A stretch of 64,000 nt of DNA from Bifidobacterium merycicum DSM 6492. Lineage in GTDB: Bacteria; Actinomycetota; Actinomycetes; Actinomycetales; Bifidobacteriaceae. Of the stretch, positions 5,381 through 14,992 are shown piece after piece. The stretch lies in contig NZ_FQTX01000001.1 in assembly GCF_900129045.1 (NCBI RefSeq), positions 558,001-622,000 on the forward strand. The letters are read 5' to 3'. Made by a program: the position numbers and the translations under genes. The first letter of the stretch is position 1, and each line of letters opens with the position of its first letter. A model generated the notes under the pieces. It ran no database searches and had not been told where the DNA came from. It worked only from the letters and a program-made list of their open reading frames with translations.

Positions 5381-5441
5381 TGCGGGTGTGCCATGCCTTA
5401 AGGCCGGGTTTCCACGCGGCACCCCGCGGAAAAGAGGGTGT

Positions 5442-5876
5442 ATGGCACGATTACATATCATTCGTCTTAATCTCGTATGCGTGGTGTTCCTCGGAGGCTG
5501 CGTCGGCACCGCATTGCGGTACTCGCTTTCGGGCCTCGCCGACCTTGGTCCGTTCCATGTCGGGACGTTCGCCGCCAATATGATCGCATGCTTCGCGTAC
5601 GCGGCGTTGTCCGCTTGGCTGGGCGGTACCGGCAGGATCGCCGGTCGCGCGAAAGAGTACGTGAACCGCGGATTCGGCATGGGCATGTGCGGCGGCCTGT
5701 CGACGATGTCCACGCTCGCGCTTGAGGAGTTCATGCTGCTGCGCGGCGGCGATGCCGCAGGATGCGCGTTGTATTGCATTGTGACGTTCGCCGTGGGCTG
5801 CGTACTCGCCTACGCCGGGGTGCTCGCCGGTCTGCGTCTCGCCGGTGCGGGGAATGGGAAGGAGTCGAACCGATGA
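5442..5876 (+). CDS. crcB: Fluoride efflux channel subunit CrcB (first copy)
   Basis: A small four-helix membrane protein (144 residues from the chosen start) of the Fluc/CrcB family, which exports toxic F- from the cytoplasm. Visible family motifs are GGCVGTALRYSLS near the start, GTFAANMIACF in helix 2 and GFGMGMCGGLSTMSTLALE in the helix 3 break. The frame is open further upstream, but the ATG at 5442 follows GAGGG and starts directly at the first hydrophobic helix. The stop overlaps the next crcB start by ATGA, so translation is coupled. Paired unlike subunits usually form a heterodimeric channel. Regulation by the upstream fluoride riboswitch is expected. Confidence 0.93.
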   Translation: MARLHIIRLNLVCVVFLGGCVGTALRYSLSGLADLGPFHVGTFAANMIACFAYAALSAWLGGTGRIAGRAKEYVNRGFGMGMCGGLSTMSTLALEEFMLLRGGDAAGCALYCIVTFAVGCVLAYAGVLAGLRLAGAGNGKESNR

Positions 5877-6244
5877 ACGCGTTCATCGTCATGGCGGTAT
5901 GCCTGTGCGGCGGCGTCGGGGCTTCGGCGCGGTACATCTGCGATTCGTATATCAAGGCCTTCTGGAGGAAGGCGTTCCCGCTGTCCACGTTCGCCATCAA
6001 CATCGTCGCCGGGTTCCTGGCGGGACTGGTCGCCGGCCTGTACGCGGATTCGGCCATGTCCGGGCAGGCGCGTCTGCTGATGGCCACCGGTTTCCTCGGC
6101 GGGTTCTCCACGTTCTCGACCATGATGAACGAATCCGTGACCCTGTTGCGCGGCGGGAGGACCGCGGTGTTCGCCGGGTATATGGTGGCATCGATCGTCG
6201 CGCCCGTGGCATGCGCCGCGCTCGGATTCCGTTGCGCCGCGTGA
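5873..6244 (+). CDS. crcB: Fluoride efflux channel subunit CrcB (second copy)
   Basis: A 123-residue, four-helix Fluc/CrcB protein. The motifs are GGVGASARYICDSY, STFAINIVAGF and TGFLGGFSTFSTMMNE, the last carrying the Phe/Ser/Thr pore residues of the family. It differs clearly from the preceding copy, as in Gram-positive bacteria where two subunits assemble as a heterodimer. The start ATG overlaps the preceding stop by four bases and follows GGAAGGAG. A longer in-frame extension upstream lies entirely within the first crcB and is rejected. Confidence 0.93.
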   Translation: MNAFIVMAVCLCGGVGASARYICDSYIKAFWRKAFPLSTFAINIVAGFLAGLVAGLYADSAMSGQARLLMATGFLGGFSTFSTMMNESVTLLRGGRTAVFAGYMVASIVAPVACAALGFRCAA

Positions 6245-6863: not shown

Positions 6864-8027
6864 TCACATCATGTCCATGAGCATGTAGCCGAGCATCAGC
6901 TGCATGCGGTTCTTCAAGCGCGACAGATCCATGCCCAGCACGTCGCCCGCCTTGGCGATCTTGTAGTTCACGGTGTTGCGGTGGACGAACAGGTCGGCGG
7001 CGGTGTCGCGCACGCTGCCGTTATGGTCGAGATAGCCTCGCAGCACGTCGGTCAGATCCGTCCCGTTCTCCTTGTCGTATTCGAGCAACGGGCCCAGCAC
7101 CTGCCGGTAGTATTCCTGTGATATCTCCGGATCCTCCACGCCGAGCAGCACGCGGTAGGCGCCGAGATCGTCGAAGAAATTGATCCGGTCGTCCAGTTTG
7201 CCTCTCGATTGCAGTTTCAATATGGATTCGGCCTGGCGATGGCTTTTGCAGATGCAGCGGATGCTCTGCGTCAGCTTGCCGACGCCGATCGAAACGGTCT
7301 CCTTCCCGCGCAGCGCACGTTGCGTGGTCTCCAACACACCTCGCCCGACGTCGCGCAGCTCCTCCGGGCTGGTGCAGTGGACGACGGCCACGATCCGTTC
7401 CCATTCCCCGTAGGTGGCGCTGAAACGGACTCGGCGGCGCAGGTATTTCCGCACGGTTTCGCTCATCGCGTCGATGCGCTTGTACGGATCGTCGGCGAAA
7501 TCGTCAAGACGGATGATGATGACCGCGTAACGCCACTCTATTTCGAAATGGAATTCGGACAGCGCGGGGATGTACAGTTCCTGCCGGTCGGGGTAGGAGA
7601 TGGCGTTGCGGAACGCGTTGCCGATCATACGGTCCTTCGTCTCCTCGTCGATGAGGCGGCGGCACAGCGGGCGTGCGATGCTTTCGAAGGGGACGTCCTT
7701 GGGGATGGCGAACAGGGGGAAGGCGTGTTCATCGCAGAAGGTCGTCACCTCTTCGGGGATGTGGTCGATGTAGTGGCCGGTGTCGAGGGCGACGCCCGCC
7801 GCGTCCCTCGCATACAGGGTGCGCACATAGGACATCAGGTCGTCATCGCCGCCCAACGCGACGCCGGTGGTGAGGATGAGCTCGTCACCACCCAGATAAT
7901 CGCTGAGCATGGTGGACTCCAGCACATGCACCCACGTGACCCGATGTGTGAGACCGTCGGATCCGGCTAGCAGATCAAGCCTTGCGTCGGGGCATCCATC
8001 GAGCAGCTCCCTTAATTCCAAAGCCAT
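6864..8027 (-). CDS. PucR family transcriptional regulator
   Basis: A 387-residue regulator transcribed away from the aminotransferase operon. Residues 1-120 form the PucR N-terminal sensory domain (MALELRELLDGCPDARLDLLAG, then LGGDELILTTGVALG). A GGDEF-like, non-catalytic middle region follows. The C-terminal helix-turn-helix of the PucR/CdaR type reads LTDVLRGYLDHNGSVRDTAA and LFVHRNTVNYKI. The start at 8027 follows AGGGAG. PucR proteins typically activate neighbouring purine, amino-acid or GABA catabolic genes when substrate is present. Its position opposite the permease/aminotransferase operon makes it the likely controller. Confidence 0.92.
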   Translation of the reverse strand: MALELRELLDGCPDARLDLLAGSDGLTHRVTWVHVLESTMLSDYLGGDELILTTGVALGGDDDLMSYVRTLYARDAAGVALDTGHYIDHIPEEVTTFCDEHAFPLFAIPKDVPFESIARPLCRRLIDEETKDRMIGNAFRNAISYPDRQELYIPALSEFHFEIEWRYAVIIIRLDDFADDPYKRIDAMSETVRKYLRRRVRFSATYGEWERIVAVVHCTSPEELRDVGRGVLETTQRALRGKETVSIGVGKLTQSIRCICKSHRQAESILKLQSRGKLDDRINFFDDLGAYRVLLGVEDPEISQEYYRQVLGPLLEYDKENGTDLTDVLRGYLDHNGSVRDTAADLFVHRNTVNYKIAKAGDVLGMDLSRLKNRMQLMLGYMLMDMM

Positions 8028-8179
8028 GCGTAATCTCCCTGAAACATTGATGTAACGGCGTATCGGCGGTCGTTCTCCGATTACTTGGATGCTTTGGAAG
8101 CCTATCGGCGCCATATTGCGCCCTCCTACGCAGGTCCGCATTCCGAACGGCCTGAGTGTGTTAACAAATCCACGCCGAT

Positions 8180-8193
8180 TGTGCCCGGGCACA
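8180..8193. promoter_or_regulatory. Palindrome in the PucR/aminotransferase intergenic region
   Basis: The 300-bp divergent intergenic space (8028-8327) contains TGTGCCCGGGCACA, a perfect 14-bp palindrome about 135 bp before the aminotransferase start. It is the clearest candidate for a regulator site here. No other gene or strong promoter was recognised in this space. The function is inferred. Confidence 0.4.
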
Positions 8194-8327
8194 TTCGTTT
8201 TTGGGTCGGGGCGGCTGGAGAAGGAAAACGGAAACCAACATACTGAAGTCAGTTCACGCCGAAGAATCCAGCTGAACGGATCGCGCGAACCACGATCCAC
8301 ACCAAGCATCGCAAGGAGGACAGCATC

Positions 8328-9545
8328 ATGAAGCTGCAGGATACCGGACTGACCTTCGAAGACATCAAGGGCAAGGTCAACAAGTACATGATCGAAACCT
8401 ACGAGCGTTTCGACTTCCTGGCCGATCACGCCAAGGGCGTCTACATGTACGACGAGAACGACACCCCGTACCTCGATTTCTACGCGGGCATCGCCGTCAA
8501 CTCCGTCGGCAACTGCAACGAGAAGGTCGTCAAGGCCATCCAGGACCAGGCCGCCACGCTGATGCAGACCTTCAACTACCCGTACACCGTGCCGCAGGCC
8601 CTGCTCGCCGAGAAGATCTGCACCTCCATCGGCATGGACAAGATCTTCTACCAGAATTCCGGCACCGAGGCCAATGAGGCCATGATCAAGATGGCCCGCA
8701 AGTACGGCGTCGAGAAGTACGGTCCGGAAAAGTACCACATCGTCACCGCACGCGAATCCTTCCACGGCCGCACCTTCGGCGCCATGTCCGCCACCGGCCA
8801 GCCGGACAACGCCTGTCAGATCGGCTTCGGCCCGATGACCGAAGGCTTCTCCTACGCGCCGTTCAACGATCTGGAAGCATTCAAGGCCGCATGCAACGAG
8901 AACACCATCGGCATCATGGTCGAACCGGTGCAGGGCGAGGGCGGCGTGCACCCCGCGACCCAGGAGTTCCTTCAGGGCCTGCGTGAATTCTGCGACGAGA
9001 AGGGCATCCTCCTGCTGCTCGACGAAGTGCAGTCCGGCTGGGGCCGTACCGGTGCGCTGATGTCGTACATGAACTACGGCATCAAGCCCGACATCGTCTC
9101 CATGGCCAAGGCGATGGGCGGCGGCATGCCGATCGGCGCGATCTGCGCCACCGACGAGGTCGCCAAGGCGTTCACCATGGGCTCGCACGGCACCACCTTC
9201 GGCGGCCACCCGGTCTGCTGCGCCGCCTCGCTCGCGGCGGTCACCGAGATCATCGACCGCGACCTGCCCGGCAACGCCAAGAAGGTCGGCGCCTACTTCA
9301 TCGACAAGCTCTCCAAGCTGCCGCACGTCAAGGAGGCCCGCGGCCAGGGCCTGTTCGTCGGCGTCGAATTCGACGGCACCATCAACGCCGTCGACGTCAA
9401 GCACGGCTGCTTCGACCGCAAGCTGCTCATCACCGCCATCGGCAAGGACGTGATCCGCATGGTCCCGCCGCTGATCATCACCGAAGAGGATGCCGACAAG
9501 GCCGTGGCCATCATCGCGGACGCCATCGATTCGCTTTCCGAATGA
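8328..9545 (+). CDS. Class-III PLP omega-aminotransferase (ArgD/GabT-like)
   Basis: A 405-residue fold-type I enzyme that moves an omega-amino group to 2-oxoglutarate, giving a semialdehyde. Visible motifs are NSGTEANEAMIKMARKYG for phosphate binding, FHGRTFGAMSATGQ, EPVQGEGGV, LLLLDEVQSGWGRTG with the PLP-ring Asp, and SMAKAMGGGMPIGA with Lys261 as the Schiff-base lysine. The sequence looks closest to acetylornithine/ornithine and 4-aminobutyrate aminotransferases. I cannot choose a substrate from sequence. The ATG follows AAGGAGG. It leads an operon with a permease-dehydrogenase fusion that could import the amino acid and reduce the semialdehyde, which favours a catabolic role over arginine synthesis. 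Confidence 0.88.
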   Translation: MKLQDTGLTFEDIKGKVNKYMIETYERFDFLADHAKGVYMYDENDTPYLDFYAGIAVNSVGNCNEKVVKAIQDQAATLMQTFNYPYTVPQALLAEKICTSIGMDKIFYQNSGTEANEAMIKMARKYGVEKYGPEKYHIVTARESFHGRTFGAMSATGQPDNACQIGFGPMTEGFSYAPFNDLEAFKAACNENTIGIMVEPVQGEGGVHPATQEFLQGLREFCDEKGILLLLDEVQSGWGRTGALMSYMNYGIKPDIVSMAKAMGGGMPIGAICATDEVAKAFTMGSHGTTFGGHPVCCAASLAAVTEIIDRDLPGNAKKVGAYFIDKLSKLPHVKEARGQGLFVGVEFDGTINAVDVKHGCFDRKLLITAIGKDVIRMVPPLIITEEDADKAVAIIADAIDSLSE

Positions 9546-10261: not shown

Positions 10262-12934
10262 ATGGAAACACATACAAGAACAAATTCGAATTTCAACAAG
10301 ACCTTCAGTTCCATGGACATCCTGATGATCGCCTTCGGCGCCATGATCGGATGGGGATGGGTGGTTTCCACCGGCGACTGGATCGGCACGGCCGGCGTCG
10401 TCGGCGCCATGCTGGGCTTCATCCTCGGCGGCGTGATGATCTTCTTCATCGGCATGGCCTACGCCGAACTGACGCCCGCCATGCCGGAATGCGGTGGCGA
10501 GCACGTGTTCAGCATGAGGGCCATGGGGCCGGTCGGCTCGTTCATCTGCACCTGGGCCATCATCCTCGGCTATGTGAGCGTCGTATGCTTCGAGGCGTGC
10601 GCGTTGCCGACCATCATCACCTACGTGTGGCCGCAGTTCCTGCAAGGCTACCTGTATTCGGTCGCCGGATTCGATATCTACGCCACCTGGCTGGCCACGG
10701 CCATCGTCTTCGCGGTGTTCATCACCGTGATCAACATCATGGGCGCGAAAACCGCCGCCAAACTGCAGAACATCCTGACCCTCGCCATCGGCGCGGCCGG
10801 CATCCTGCTCATCGCCGCATCCGTGGTCACCGGCAACCCCTCCAACCTGGAAGGGCAGATGTTCGCCGGCAGCGGCATGCAGGGCATGATGAGCACCATC
10901 ATCAAGGTCGCCGCCGTCAGCCCGTTCTTCTTCATCGGCTTCGACGTCATCCCGCAGGCCGCCGAGGAGATCAACGTGCCGCTCAAGAAGATCGGCAAGA
11001 TCCTGATGCTCTCCATCGTCCTCGGCGTCGGCTTCTACGCCTTGGTCATCTTCTCCGTCGGCTACGTCATGAACGGCAGCCAGATCGCCGCATCCTACAA
11101 CGGCAGCGGCCTGGTCACCGCCGACGCCATGGCGAACGCCTTCCACAGCACCATCATGGCGAAGGTGCTGATCCTGGCCGGCATGTGCGGCATCATCACC
11201 AGCTGGAACTCGTTCATGATCGGCGGCAGCCGCGCCATGTACTCCATGGCCGAGTCCTACATGATCCCGAAGTTCTTCGGCAAACTGCATCCGAAGACCA
11301 ACACCCCGTACGTTTCCATCCTCGTCGTCGGCCTGCTCAGCGTGCTCGCCCCGTTCGCCGGCCGCAAGATGCTCGTCTGGATCGTCGATGCCGGCAACTT
11401 CGGCTGCATCCTCGCCTACTGCATGGTCTCCCTGTCCTTCATCATCCTGCACGTGAAGGAACCGACCATGCCCCGCCCGTACAAGGTGAAGCATTGGAAG
11501 TTCATCGGCGCCATGGCCGTGCTCATGTCGGCCATCATGATCATGCTTTACATCCTGCCCGGCACGGGGGTCACCCTCGCCCCGCAGGAGTGGGCGATGG
11601 TCGCTGGATGGACGCTGCTCGGCGTGGTGTTCTTCATCTTCAGCAAGCTCGTCTACAAGGAGAAATTCGGCTATTACGCCCAGCTCACCGTCGGCGAAAC
11701 CGCCGGAAACGAAACCGAGGAGGACACGTCCATCCCGGCACGCGCGGCGACCAATCTCATGGCCGTGGAGGCCAGCGCCCCGGACGAGTGGAACCACGGC
11801 TTCGACTACTTCCTGCCGGTCAACCTGGTGTTCGGCCAAGGCAAGGTGGAACAGGTCGGCAAGATCGCCACCGTTCACGGTTCGACCGCGATGATCGTTA
11901 CCGGCGGCAATTCCGTCAAGCGCACCGGCACCTACGACAAGGTCCGCACGCTCCTTGAAAACGAGGGCATGGACACCGTCCTGTTCGACAAGGTCACCCC
12001 CAACCCCCTGACCACCACGGTCGAGGAAGGTGCGAAACTGGCCGTCGAACGGCACGCCGACGTCATCATCGGCCTCGGCGGCGGCAGCGTCATGGATGCG
12101 GCCAAAGGCATCGCCTTCATGGCCATGAACGACGGCGACGTCACCGAATACATCTACGGGGAGAAGACATCCGACAAGGCCCTGCCGCTCATTCTCGTGC
12201 CCACCACCTTCGGCACCGGTTCGGAATCCAACGGGTTCGCGGTCATGACCAACCCCGACAACGGCGACAAGAAATCCCTGCGCAGCCCAGCGCTCGTCGC
12301 CACCGCGTCCATCGTCGACCCCGACCTCATGCGCAGCATGCCGAGCGGTGTCATCGCGGCCAACGGATGCGACATGCTCTGCCACTGCATCGAGGCCTTC
12401 ACCGCCAACAACGCCCAGCCGTTCACCGACGCGCTCGCACTGTACGCGATCCCGCTGATCGCCAACAACATCGTGAGCCTGTACCGTGGCGAAGGCACCG
12501 ACGAACAATGGTCCAAGGTCTGCCTGGCCGGCACCATCGGCGGCATGGTGATCAACACCGCCGGCATCACGCTGGGCCATGCCATGGAACATCCGGTCAG
12601 CGGCCTGAAGGACGTCACCCACGGCAAGGGGTTGGCGGCCATCGAACCCAAGGCCATCGAGGCGACCTGCAAGTACAACCGGTTCAAGTTCGGGCGCGTC
12701 GCGAGGATCCTCGGCGGCTTCACCGCGGAGGATTGCGCGCCACGCATGAGGACGCTGCTCAAGGATCTCGACCTCGACGTGACCCTCACCGACCTCGGCA
12801 TCGAAAAGAAGGACATCCCGTGGCTCGCCGGCAACGCCCGCAAGGTCTCGCCCGGCAACCTGGTGAACACGCCCGGCTCCGAACTCGTCACCACCGAGGA
12901 ATCGTTGGAGCGGCTTTACGAGTCGATGCTCTGA
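10262..12934 (+). CDS. Fusion of APC amino-acid permease and iron-containing alcohol dehydrogenase
   Basis: One uninterrupted 890-residue frame. Residues 1 to about 475 form a 12-helix APC-superfamily permease (SSMDILMIAFGAMIGWGWVV, then AYAELTPAMPECGGEHVF, then PFFFIGFDVIPQAAEEI). A polar linker spans about 476-510. Residues 511-890 form a complete group III, iron-dependent alcohol dehydrogenase: FDYFLPVNLVFGQGKVEQVG, nucleotide loop GLGGGSVMDAAKGIAF, VPTTFGTGSE. Asp704, His708, His773 and His787 fit the four metal ligands, with the family's usual spacing. The ATG at 10262 follows GGAAGGA. The dehydrogenase would hang on the cytoplasmic face and could reduce the semialdehyde made by the upstream aminotransferase. 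The direction of catalysis and the substrate are inferred. Confidence 0.92.
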   Translation: METHTRTNSNFNKTFSSMDILMIAFGAMIGWGWVVSTGDWIGTAGVVGAMLGFILGGVMIFFIGMAYAELTPAMPECGGEHVFSMRAMGPVGSFICTWAIILGYVSVVCFEACALPTIITYVWPQFLQGYLYSVAGFDIYATWLATAIVFAVFITVINIMGAKTAAKLQNILTLAIGAAGILLIAASVVTGNPSNLEGQMFAGSGMQGMMSTIIKVAAVSPFFFIGFDVIPQAAEEINVPLKKIGKILMLSIVLGVGFYALVIFSVGYVMNGSQIAASYNGSGLVTADAMANAFHSTIMAKVLILAGMCGIITSWNSFMIGGSRAMYSMAESYMIPKFFGKLHPKTNTPYVSILVVGLLSVLAPFAGRKMLVWIVDAGNFGCILAYCMVSLSFIILHVKEPTMPRPYKVKHWKFIGAMAVLMSAIMIMLYILPGTGVTLAPQEWAMVAGWTLLGVVFFIFSKLVYKEKFGYYAQLTVGETAGNETEEDTSIPARAATNLMAVEASAPDEWNHGFDYFLPVNLVFGQGKVEQVGKIATVHGSTAMIVTGGNSVKRTGTYDKVRTLLENEGMDTVLFDKVTPNPLTTTVEEGAKLAVERHADVIIGLGGGSVMDAAKGIAFMAMNDGDVTEYIYGEKTSDKALPLILVPTTFGTGSESNGFAVMTNPDNGDKKSLRSPALVATASIVDPDLMRSMPSGVIAANGCDMLCHCIEAFTANNAQPFTDALALYAIPLIANNIVSLYRGEGTDEQWSKVCLAGTIGGMVINTAGITLGHAMEHPVSGLKDVTHGKGLAAIEPKAIEATCKYNRFKFGRVARILGGFTAEDCAPRMRTLLKDLDLDVTLTDLGIEKKDIPWLAGNARKVSPGNLVNTPGSELVTTEESLERLYESML

Positions 12935-13151: not shown

Positions 13152-14992
13152 ATGGGTAAATACGAAATCGACGTGAAACGCCTCCTGCAATATGTGGGCG
13201 GCAAACCGAACATCAAAGCGGTCTCGCATTGCATCACCAGGATGAGGTTCGTGCTGGCGAATCCGGGCCGGGCGGACATCAGCCTCATCGAGGCGCTGCC
13301 CAGCGTCAAGGGCACATTCACGCAGGCGGGGCAGTTCCAGGTCATCATCGGCAACGATGTGGCCGAATTCTACAACGAGTTCACCGATGTGGCGGGTATC
13401 GAGGGCGTGAGCAAGGAAGCCGTCAAGGACGCCGCCAAAAGCAACCAGAACATCCTGCAACGCGTCATGGGCGTGCTGGGCGAGATCTTCGCCCCGATCA
13501 CCCCGCACTCGTCTGCGGCGGTCTCATTCTGGGCTTGCGTAATGTGATCGGCGAAATCCGTTTCTTCAACGACGGCACCCAGAGTCTGGCCGGCATCTCC
13601 CAGTTCTGGGGCGGCATGTACCAGTTCCTGTGGCTTATCGGCGAGGCCGTGTTCCATCTGCTGCCGGTCGGCATCGTATGGTCCATCACCAAGAAGATGG
13701 GCACCACGCAGATCCTCGGCATCGTGCTCGGCCTGACGCTCGTCTCGCCGCAGCTGCTCAACGGCTTCTCCGTCGCGTCCACGAAGGCCGCCGACATCCC
13801 GTTCTGGGATTTCGGTTTCGCCCATGTGCGGATGATCGGCTATCAGGGGCAGGTCATCGCGGCCATGATGGCCGGCTTCGTGCTGGTGTATCTCGAACGC
13901 CTCTTCCGGAGGATATGCCCCGAGGTCATCAGCATGATCGTGGTGCCGTTCTGCTCGCTGCTGCTCGCGGTGCTCATCTCGCATACGATCGTCGGGCCGA
14001 TCGGCTGGAGGCTCGGTGACGGCATCGCCCATATCGTGTATTCGGGCCTGACATCCCCGTACCGTCTGTTCTTCGCCGCCATCTTCGGCCTGCTGTATGC
14101 GCCGCTCGTGATGACGGGCCTGCACCATATGACCAACGCCATCGACTCCCAGCTGATCGCGGCCACCGGCAGCACCATCCTGTGGCCGATGATCGCGCTG
14201 TCGAACATCGCCCAAGGCTCGTCCGTGGTGGCCATGTCCGTGCTGCAGAAAAGGAACAAACGCGCCCAGCAGGTCAACGTTCCCGCGTTCATCTCCTGCT
14301 ATCTGGGCGTCACCGAACCTGCGTTGTTCGGCGTGAACCTCAAATACGTGTTCCCCTTGGTGTGCGGCATGCTGGGTTCCTCCTGCGCGGCCATGATCTC
14401 GGTCGGCTTCGGCGCGGAGGCGTTGAGCATCGGCGTCGGCGGCATTCCGGGCATCCTGTCCATCAGGCCCCGCTTCTTCCTTGTGTTCCTCGTCGCCATG
14501 CTCGTGGCCATGATCGTGCCGTTCCTGCTCACCCTGATCGTCGGCAAGGCGAAGCTGACCACATCCGAACGCGGCTTGGTATCCGCCGAAGTCGAGGGGG
14601 CGGACGTCGCCGATTCCGCCGCCCGGGGAGCCGGGGATGATGGGGATGCCGTTTCCGCCGTTTCCGCCGGGGCCGCCGAACCCGTCGATGACGGTAAGGC
14701 CACCGCAATCGTCGACGGCAAGGTCATTCCGCTCGATCAGGTGCCGGACGAAGTGTTCTCCAAAAAGGTCGTCGGCGACGGATTCGAATGCCTTGCCGGA
14801 TTGGGAGACAGGGTGCGTCGCGGCGATCCGCTCATCCGCTTCGACGCGGGGAAGATCCGCAAGGCTGGGCATCCATGCACCACGATGCTCATCGTCACCT
14901 CCGAAGGCGACGCGACCGGCATAGCGATGCACACCGGCATCGACGCGAAGGCCGGCAGCACCCCGGTCATCACCTGGAACAACCAATCCTGA
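13152..14992 (+). pseudogene. treB: Trehalose PTS permease EIIBC(A), frameshifted with damaged EIIA
   Basis: The gene begins with an EIIB domain (phosphorylation Cys27 in SHCITRMRF) and should continue into EIIC, but frame 1 stops at 13547. The EIIC domain resumes one frame over at about 13505: a missing G between CCG and CA turns the expected ITPALVCGGLILG into ITPHSSAAV. The EIIC part closely resembles TreB, with PQLLNGFSVAS, FGLLYAPLVMTGLHHMTNAID, WPMIALSNIAQGS, LGVTEPALFGVNLKY and GVGGIPGILSI. A C-terminal EIIA-like tail starts GKVIPLDQVPDEVFSKKVVG but jumps straight to GDRVRRGDPL. About 60 residues with the active-site His are missing. The gene looks non-functional unless the frameshift is a sequencing error. 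Confidence 0.88.

Follow-up and report, generated by a model that had tools for sequence, protein, structure and literature searches.

Within the 64,000-nucleotide stretch of Bifidobacterium merycicum DSM 6492 DNA analysed here (the window), positions 10262 to 12934 of the forward strand form a single open frame that begins with an ATG at 10262, closes with the stop codon ending at 12934, and encodes 890 amino acids with no internal stops. The gene joins an APC-type amino-acid permease, a linker and an iron-type (group III) alcohol dehydrogenase (ADH) in one chain. The permease part (residues 1-470; 10262..11671) carries an AA_permease_2 domain at residues 19-447 (2.4e-34) and exceeds the Pfam cut-offs for both AA_permease (113 bits vs 24.6) and AA_permease_2 (119 vs 27). 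By hydropathy its hydrophobic 19-mers span residues 17 to 464, and by sequence it matches the PDB entries 5oqt and 6f34. The ADH part (residues 519-890; 11816..12931) consists of an Fe-ADH domain at 519-687 (4.8e-51; 173 bits vs a cut-off of 31.3) and an ADH_Fe_C domain at 699-860 (1.6e-34; 120 vs 27). The metal ligands Asp704, His708, His773 and His787 and the GGGS loop at 606-609 lie at the residues given by a first-pass annotation of this DNA, and are invariant in all 33 aligned fused proteins, a chosen subset of the fused homologues found.

The two halves are separated by a variable, disordered linker (residues 477-517; 11690..11812). The continuous permease-to-dehydrogenase frame of the first-pass annotation holds. 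That annotation also called for a structural model, and in an AlphaFold2 prediction built from an alignment of fused proteins (mean pLDDT 80.9, pTM 0.53) both domains fold, and the linker is the longest of the segments with pLDDT below 50, the others being residues 1-5, 75-80 and 807-818. Since the pTM is low, the relative placement of the permease and ADH halves is not predicted by the model. The best 50 Foldseek rows are ADH structures alone, and the permease fold therefore rests on sequence and hydropathy. Linker length differs among the aligned fused homologues. Separate translation of the ADH by an internal restart was considered and rejected: by eye, an AGGAGG-like stretch near 11720 has no start codon at the normal distance, and the methionine in the linker is not conserved.

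Upstream of the fusion on the same strand are two genes, a class III aminotransferase of 405 amino acids (8328..9545) and a cytidylate-kinase-like protein (PF13189; 9591..10181) that is kept beside the fusion in the neighbourhoods compared. Divergent from this operon is a PucR-family regulator on the reverse strand (6864..8027; Pfam PucR, HTH_30 and GGDEF_2), whose start at 8027 was placed by means of a 387-residue orthologue at another locus (L065). An inverted repeat between the regulator and the aminotransferase (8176..8197) is a predicted operator, and its core can be recognized by eye in 6/6 aligned intergenic regions of the bifidobacterial group to which the window belongs (clade 1, below). 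The regulator would presumably respond to the substrate of the operon. The order PucR, aminotransferase, kinase-like protein and fusion is found in the window and at all five other clade-1 loci; at the four loci of a second bifidobacterial clade the order is kinase-like protein, fusion and a GABA-transaminase-like gene, with no PucR match in the four stretches. The PF13189 protein accompanies loci with transaminase, permease and ADH in bifidobacteria and in Clostridia-side genomes alike (the window, L069, L070, L108-L113, L060, L063 and L114).

By profile, PDB match and genome comparison the aminotransferase is an ArgD-like paralogue. It passes the argD family TIGR00707 (427 bits vs a cut-off of 410), and acetylornithine enzymes are the structures it matches best in the PDB; the GABA transaminase family TIGR00700 (cut-off 506.65) lies outside the best 25 of 70 families, the 25th of which scores 216 bits. 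It is not the ArgD of the arginine pathway, which sits on another contig in an apparent arg cluster (read from protein starts and gene order, with ArgD alone tested by profile). That ArgD passes PRK03244 (576 bits vs a cut-off of 457) and is 38% identical to the window enzyme, which thus looks like a dedicated paralogue.

The fusion was found, as a near-full-chain match with no internal stop, in 10 of 112 Bifidobacterium species genomes, its own included and B. pongonis, B. erythrocebi and B. moukalabense among the named holders. These uninterrupted matches rule out a sequencing error that hides a stop codon. Nor are the halves encoded as two genes in close relatives, as all ten holders in the genus carry the fused form and no split form was detected at E 1e-55 among the 112 genomes. 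The holders fall into two clades, one of six genomes (clade 1, 85-100% identity) and one of four (clade 2, 64-65%). In the protein database, 2,496 of 7,991 scored candidates passed E 1e-3, and the 120 listed all carry both domain families; one of the proteins (P0037, 601 amino acids) is a shorter piece. Source names among the listed fused homologues include Bilifractor and Chordicoccus, both Lachnospiraceae, and Bilifractor is the name attached both to a fused protein (P0040) and to a protein of the aminotransferase list (P0238). By eye, four pairs of entries in the fused and aminotransferase lists share the length of their longest contig, a hint at a common neighbourhood that may be due to chance. 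The Lachnospiraceae fusions come from protein records. No fused gene was found in 38 genomes of other genera of the same order, in the genomes of four families (40, 11, 70 and 189), or in 391 genomes of the class and 398 of the phylum to which a Ruminococcus metagenome-assembled genome belongs; in the 189-genome, class and phylum sets scoring was confined to each genome's two to four top first-look candidates, and the sets outside the genus overlap in part. One chain-spanning match in the 189-genome set (G1194) contains an internal stop and corresponds to two neighbouring genes.

Against four clade-1 orthologues, dN/dS is 0.06-0.17 for the permease, 0.10-0.15 for the ADH and 0.32-0.51 for the linker, and in three clade-2 pairs it is 0.37-0.42 in both halves. 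The linker, counted here as 471-513, has the highest value of the three parts in 7/7 usable pairs (seven of nine comparison genes were used, L009 and L013 being left out). The low values against the clade-1 orthologues indicate purifying selection on both halves and, together with the invariant metal ligands, exclude a decayed half, in keeping with the earlier impression that both were intact. The data support a transporter-redox fusion that is real, intact and selected.

Trees were built with 28 fused homologues besides the ten bifidobacterial ones. Both bifidobacterial clades are well supported. In the permease tree clade 2 groups with four fused proteins (P0057, P0071, P0074 and P0113; 96/82), clade 1 belongs to a different group (96/91), and five unfused permeases (L108, L110-L113) branch together with fused ones at a fork that the tree does not resolve. 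In the ADH tree, where the outgroup branches are very long, eight of nine unfused close ADHs cluster with two fused rows (96/90), and the ninth (L114) does not resolve. The simplest reading is that an already fused gene would have reached the bifidobacteria in two separate arrivals. From the placement of the unfused forms, some of them may be later fissions.

Unfused relatives of the parts occur in several settings. In the family of genome G777, a strong match was found in 7/189 genomes, and the surroundings were retrieved for six of them (L108-L113, without G1184; contig ends truncate L109 and L111). In each of the six the order is that of the window, with an aminotransferase 70-80% identical to that of the window, the kinase-like protein, a permease (64-65%) and an ADH; unlike in the window, the genes are separate and the ADH belongs to another Fe-ADH subfamily, 30-33% identical to the fusion ADH. 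No PucR match was found at these six loci, and four have an HTH-cupin regulator in its place. Unfused ADHs of the type found in the fusion (48-58% identity) occur in 11 genomes, and loci were retrieved for nine of them (all except G526 and G529). A GABA-transaminase-like gene lies in five of these nine stretches and the ArgD-like aminotransferase in two, and the remaining two contain neither. At L060, L062 and L063, three of the nine loci, every one of the three subunits of a polar amino acid ABC transporter has a match. Eight GABA-transaminase-like proteins were tested against the TIGR00700 cut-off; those of L055, L057, L062 and L152 pass and those of L060, L063, L117 and L121 fail. In five of 17 retrieved loci with unfused permeases (L053, L056, L058, L071 and L072), neither type of class III aminotransferase was seen. 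At two of these, the close permease homologues (58-60%) lie in what looks like an unrelated cluster, amid genes for ATP-grasp, C-C bond lyase and acyltransferase proteins, as read from Pfam for L056 and from shared gene clusters for L053. The parts thus look exchangeable, with transaminases and transporters of two types each and ADHs from several subfamilies serving one apparent pathway logic. Such exchange is the chief argument that the ArgD-like enzyme shares the kind of substrate used by GABA transaminase.

The B. merycicum genome holds a second, unfused set on another contig (L152), with a PucR regulator, a CN hydrolase, a permease, a GABA transaminase above its cut-off and an Fe-ADH. Compared with the fused locus, it has the regulator, permease, transaminase and ADH as separate genes, and its ADH is of another Fe-ADH subfamily (30-33% identity to the fusion ADH, as for L108-L113); the best PDB sequence match of that ADH is Cvir-Hbd2 (3.5e-106), and its match to PDB 30sm is strong. 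The presence of two sets in one genome suggests that the substrate of the fused locus may differ in chain length from that of the L152 set, or be another amino acid. The succinate-semialdehyde dehydrogenase (SSADH) family TIGR01780 has no match at E 1e-20 in this genome, which is 100% complete, in a search whose control was positive in 12 of 14 well-known genomes, and a reductive end to the pathway is therefore plausible here. An SSADH-family aldehyde dehydrogenase scoring below the cut-off is present in 6/10 genomes with the fusion, so that the missing oxidative route is not generally tied to the fusion.

The setting resembles a GABA locus, with a divergent PucR regulator, a palindrome, a class III aminotransferase, a permease and an ADH. 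In the known GABA locus of Corynebacterium glutamicum, a PucR-type GabR is divergent from gabTDP (PMC7652997), and the two loci would share the divergent regulator, the aminotransferase, the permease and an aldehyde-handling enzyme. Among the features expected of a gabR-gabTDP-type locus, the divergent PucR, the class III aminotransferase and the permease were found, and a succinate-semialdehyde dehydrogenase was not found in this genome at E 1e-20. In C. glutamicum, GabD oxidises the aldehyde and a gene of its own encodes the permease, whereas the ADH fused to the permease in the window would reduce the aldehyde; the window layout resembles gabR-gabTDP in which a single chain stands in for GabD and GabP (PMC7652997).

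On balance, and by a small measure, it is probable that the compound imported by the permease half is GABA or a closely similar omega-amino acid, for example 5-aminovalerate, and that the tethered ADH reduces the resulting semialdehyde to an omega-hydroxy acid. In favour of this reading are the conserved gene order, the GABA-transaminase-like genes at clade-2 and unfused-ADH loci, the parallels with C. glutamicum gabTDP and with TauF (below), the missing SSADH match in this genome and the low dN/dS. Against it stand the ArgD-like type of the window aminotransferase, the second set in the same genome, the equivalog scores of the ADH half, the SSADH-family proteins in 6/10 fused genomes, the loci with no PucR match and the unfused-permease loci with no class III aminotransferase. 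GABA or 5-aminovalerate would enter through the permease half. A separate enzyme, presumably the neighbouring aminotransferase, would transfer the amino group to 2-oxoglutarate, yielding glutamate as a nitrogen source and the semialdehyde. The tethered ADH would then use NAD(P)H to reduce the toxic aldehyde, forming a hydroxy acid (4-hydroxybutyrate, for instance) and returning NAD(P)+ to the fermenting cell. The ends of APC permeases are cytosolic, and we infer a cytosolic position for the ADH, as we do its substrate and the direction of its reaction. Profiles give the ADH half no substrate-specific family name, because it passes none of the equivalog cut-offs listed: ErcA (NF041833, 229 bits vs 550), 4-hydroxybutyrate dehydrogenase (NF058672, 169 vs 500) and the SarD sulfoacetaldehyde reductase (NF050025, 182 vs 700). 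An ErcA-like regulator was rejected, as this best profile reaches less than half its cut-off and the metal site is intact.

Direct channelling of an intermediate between the halves, as the first-pass annotation had envisaged, is unlikely, since an amino acid would be imported, the ADH would act on an aldehyde, and the enzyme for the intervening transaminase step is encoded by a separate gene. Its other suggestion, that uptake is coupled to the oxidation of NAD(P)H, could hold only loosely, in that the pathway would end in a reduction. The tether would keep the aldehyde reductase at the membrane in a fixed ratio to the importer; candidate roles are this fixed ratio, local removal of the aldehyde and the feeding of an exchanger. 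It is also a serious, if lesser, prospect that the fusion is a stop-loss accident, with two independent proteins on one string and nothing gained from the tether, an account compatible with the pathway just proposed. In its favour are the linker, which is disordered, variable in length and fast-evolving, and the existence of loci with four separate genes; yet the fused state has been kept in all ten bifidobacterial holders and in the 28 other fused homologues of the trees, and the gene was apparently passed on in that state twice.

The identity of the amino acid may also be divided between the two sets of the B. merycicum genome, with the fused locus serving 5-aminovalerate (by way of glutarate semialdehyde to 5-hydroxyvalerate) and the unfused locus serving GABA. 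Two complete sets in one genome would suit such a division, as would the aminotransferase type, because acetylornithine transaminases act on a delta-amine, which is also present in 5-aminovalerate. Proline Stickland fermentation yields 5-aminovalerate, which C. viride converts via 5-hydroxyvalerate (PMC8473912). However, clade-2 bifidobacteria pair the same fusion with a GABA-transaminase-like enzyme and none of the sequence features examined tells the two substrates apart, and this division of labour is considered rather unlikely.

It is improbable that the substrate is a sulfonate or some other omega-amino compound (taurine, beta-alanine). The precedent is a proposed taurine route in Bifidobacterium kashiwanohense, in which a transaminase and then the metal ADH TauF would serve nitrogen assimilation (PMC6616044). 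That putative pathway shares with the window locus transport, a transaminase and a metal-dependent ADH reducing an aldehyde in a nitrogen-scavenging fermenter, and TauF (PDB 6jko) is from the same genus and superfamily. TauF differs in being a distant relative, studied as a single protein, with Gln196 as a metal ligand where spacing places His708 in the fusion (PMC6616044). Against this substrate class, 6jko is not among the closest structures by sequence (139 bits vs 192 for the best), and the ABC genes found next to unfused ADHs are similar to the L063 ones, whose scores mark them as transporters of polar amino acids. An exchanger is a similarly long shot: the permease would take up GABA (or 5-aminovalerate) from outside in exchange for 4-hydroxybutyrate (or 5-hydroxyvalerate) that the tethered ADH makes inside, at the cytosolic mouth of the transporter. 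A single chain would then take in nitrogen, dispose of NAD(P)H and export the product.

Bifidobacteria and Lachnospiraceae are gut groups, and if GABA or a close omega-amino acid is indeed the substrate, some of their members would clear GABA-type amino acids and give off hydroxy acids, 4-hydroxybutyrate for example. Such a route would be an alternative to the GABA shunt that ends in reduction instead of oxidation, and its reductase would be physically attached to the importer. The fused and unfused versions of a near-identical operon would also offer a natural, conserved test of enzyme-transporter tethering. The first-pass annotation knew of no described protein with this layout. The architecture is already catalogued, as shown by the automatic name "bifunctional amino acid transporter/iron-containing alcohol dehydrogenase" that some of the fused homologues bear at NCBI, and this is a name only; a literature search on name-like phrases returned no paper, and a looser search none on the architecture by title.

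Two further observations concern the flanks of the locus. Downstream of the fusion, the frames at 13152-13547 and 13229-14992 look like one gene split by a frameshift near 13500, or by an assembly error there; by eye we take this gene (13152-14992) to be a PTS EIIBC component. Upstream, positions 5388-6244 hold two small overlapping ORFs, which by eye look like a CrcB/Fluc fluoride channel gene pair.
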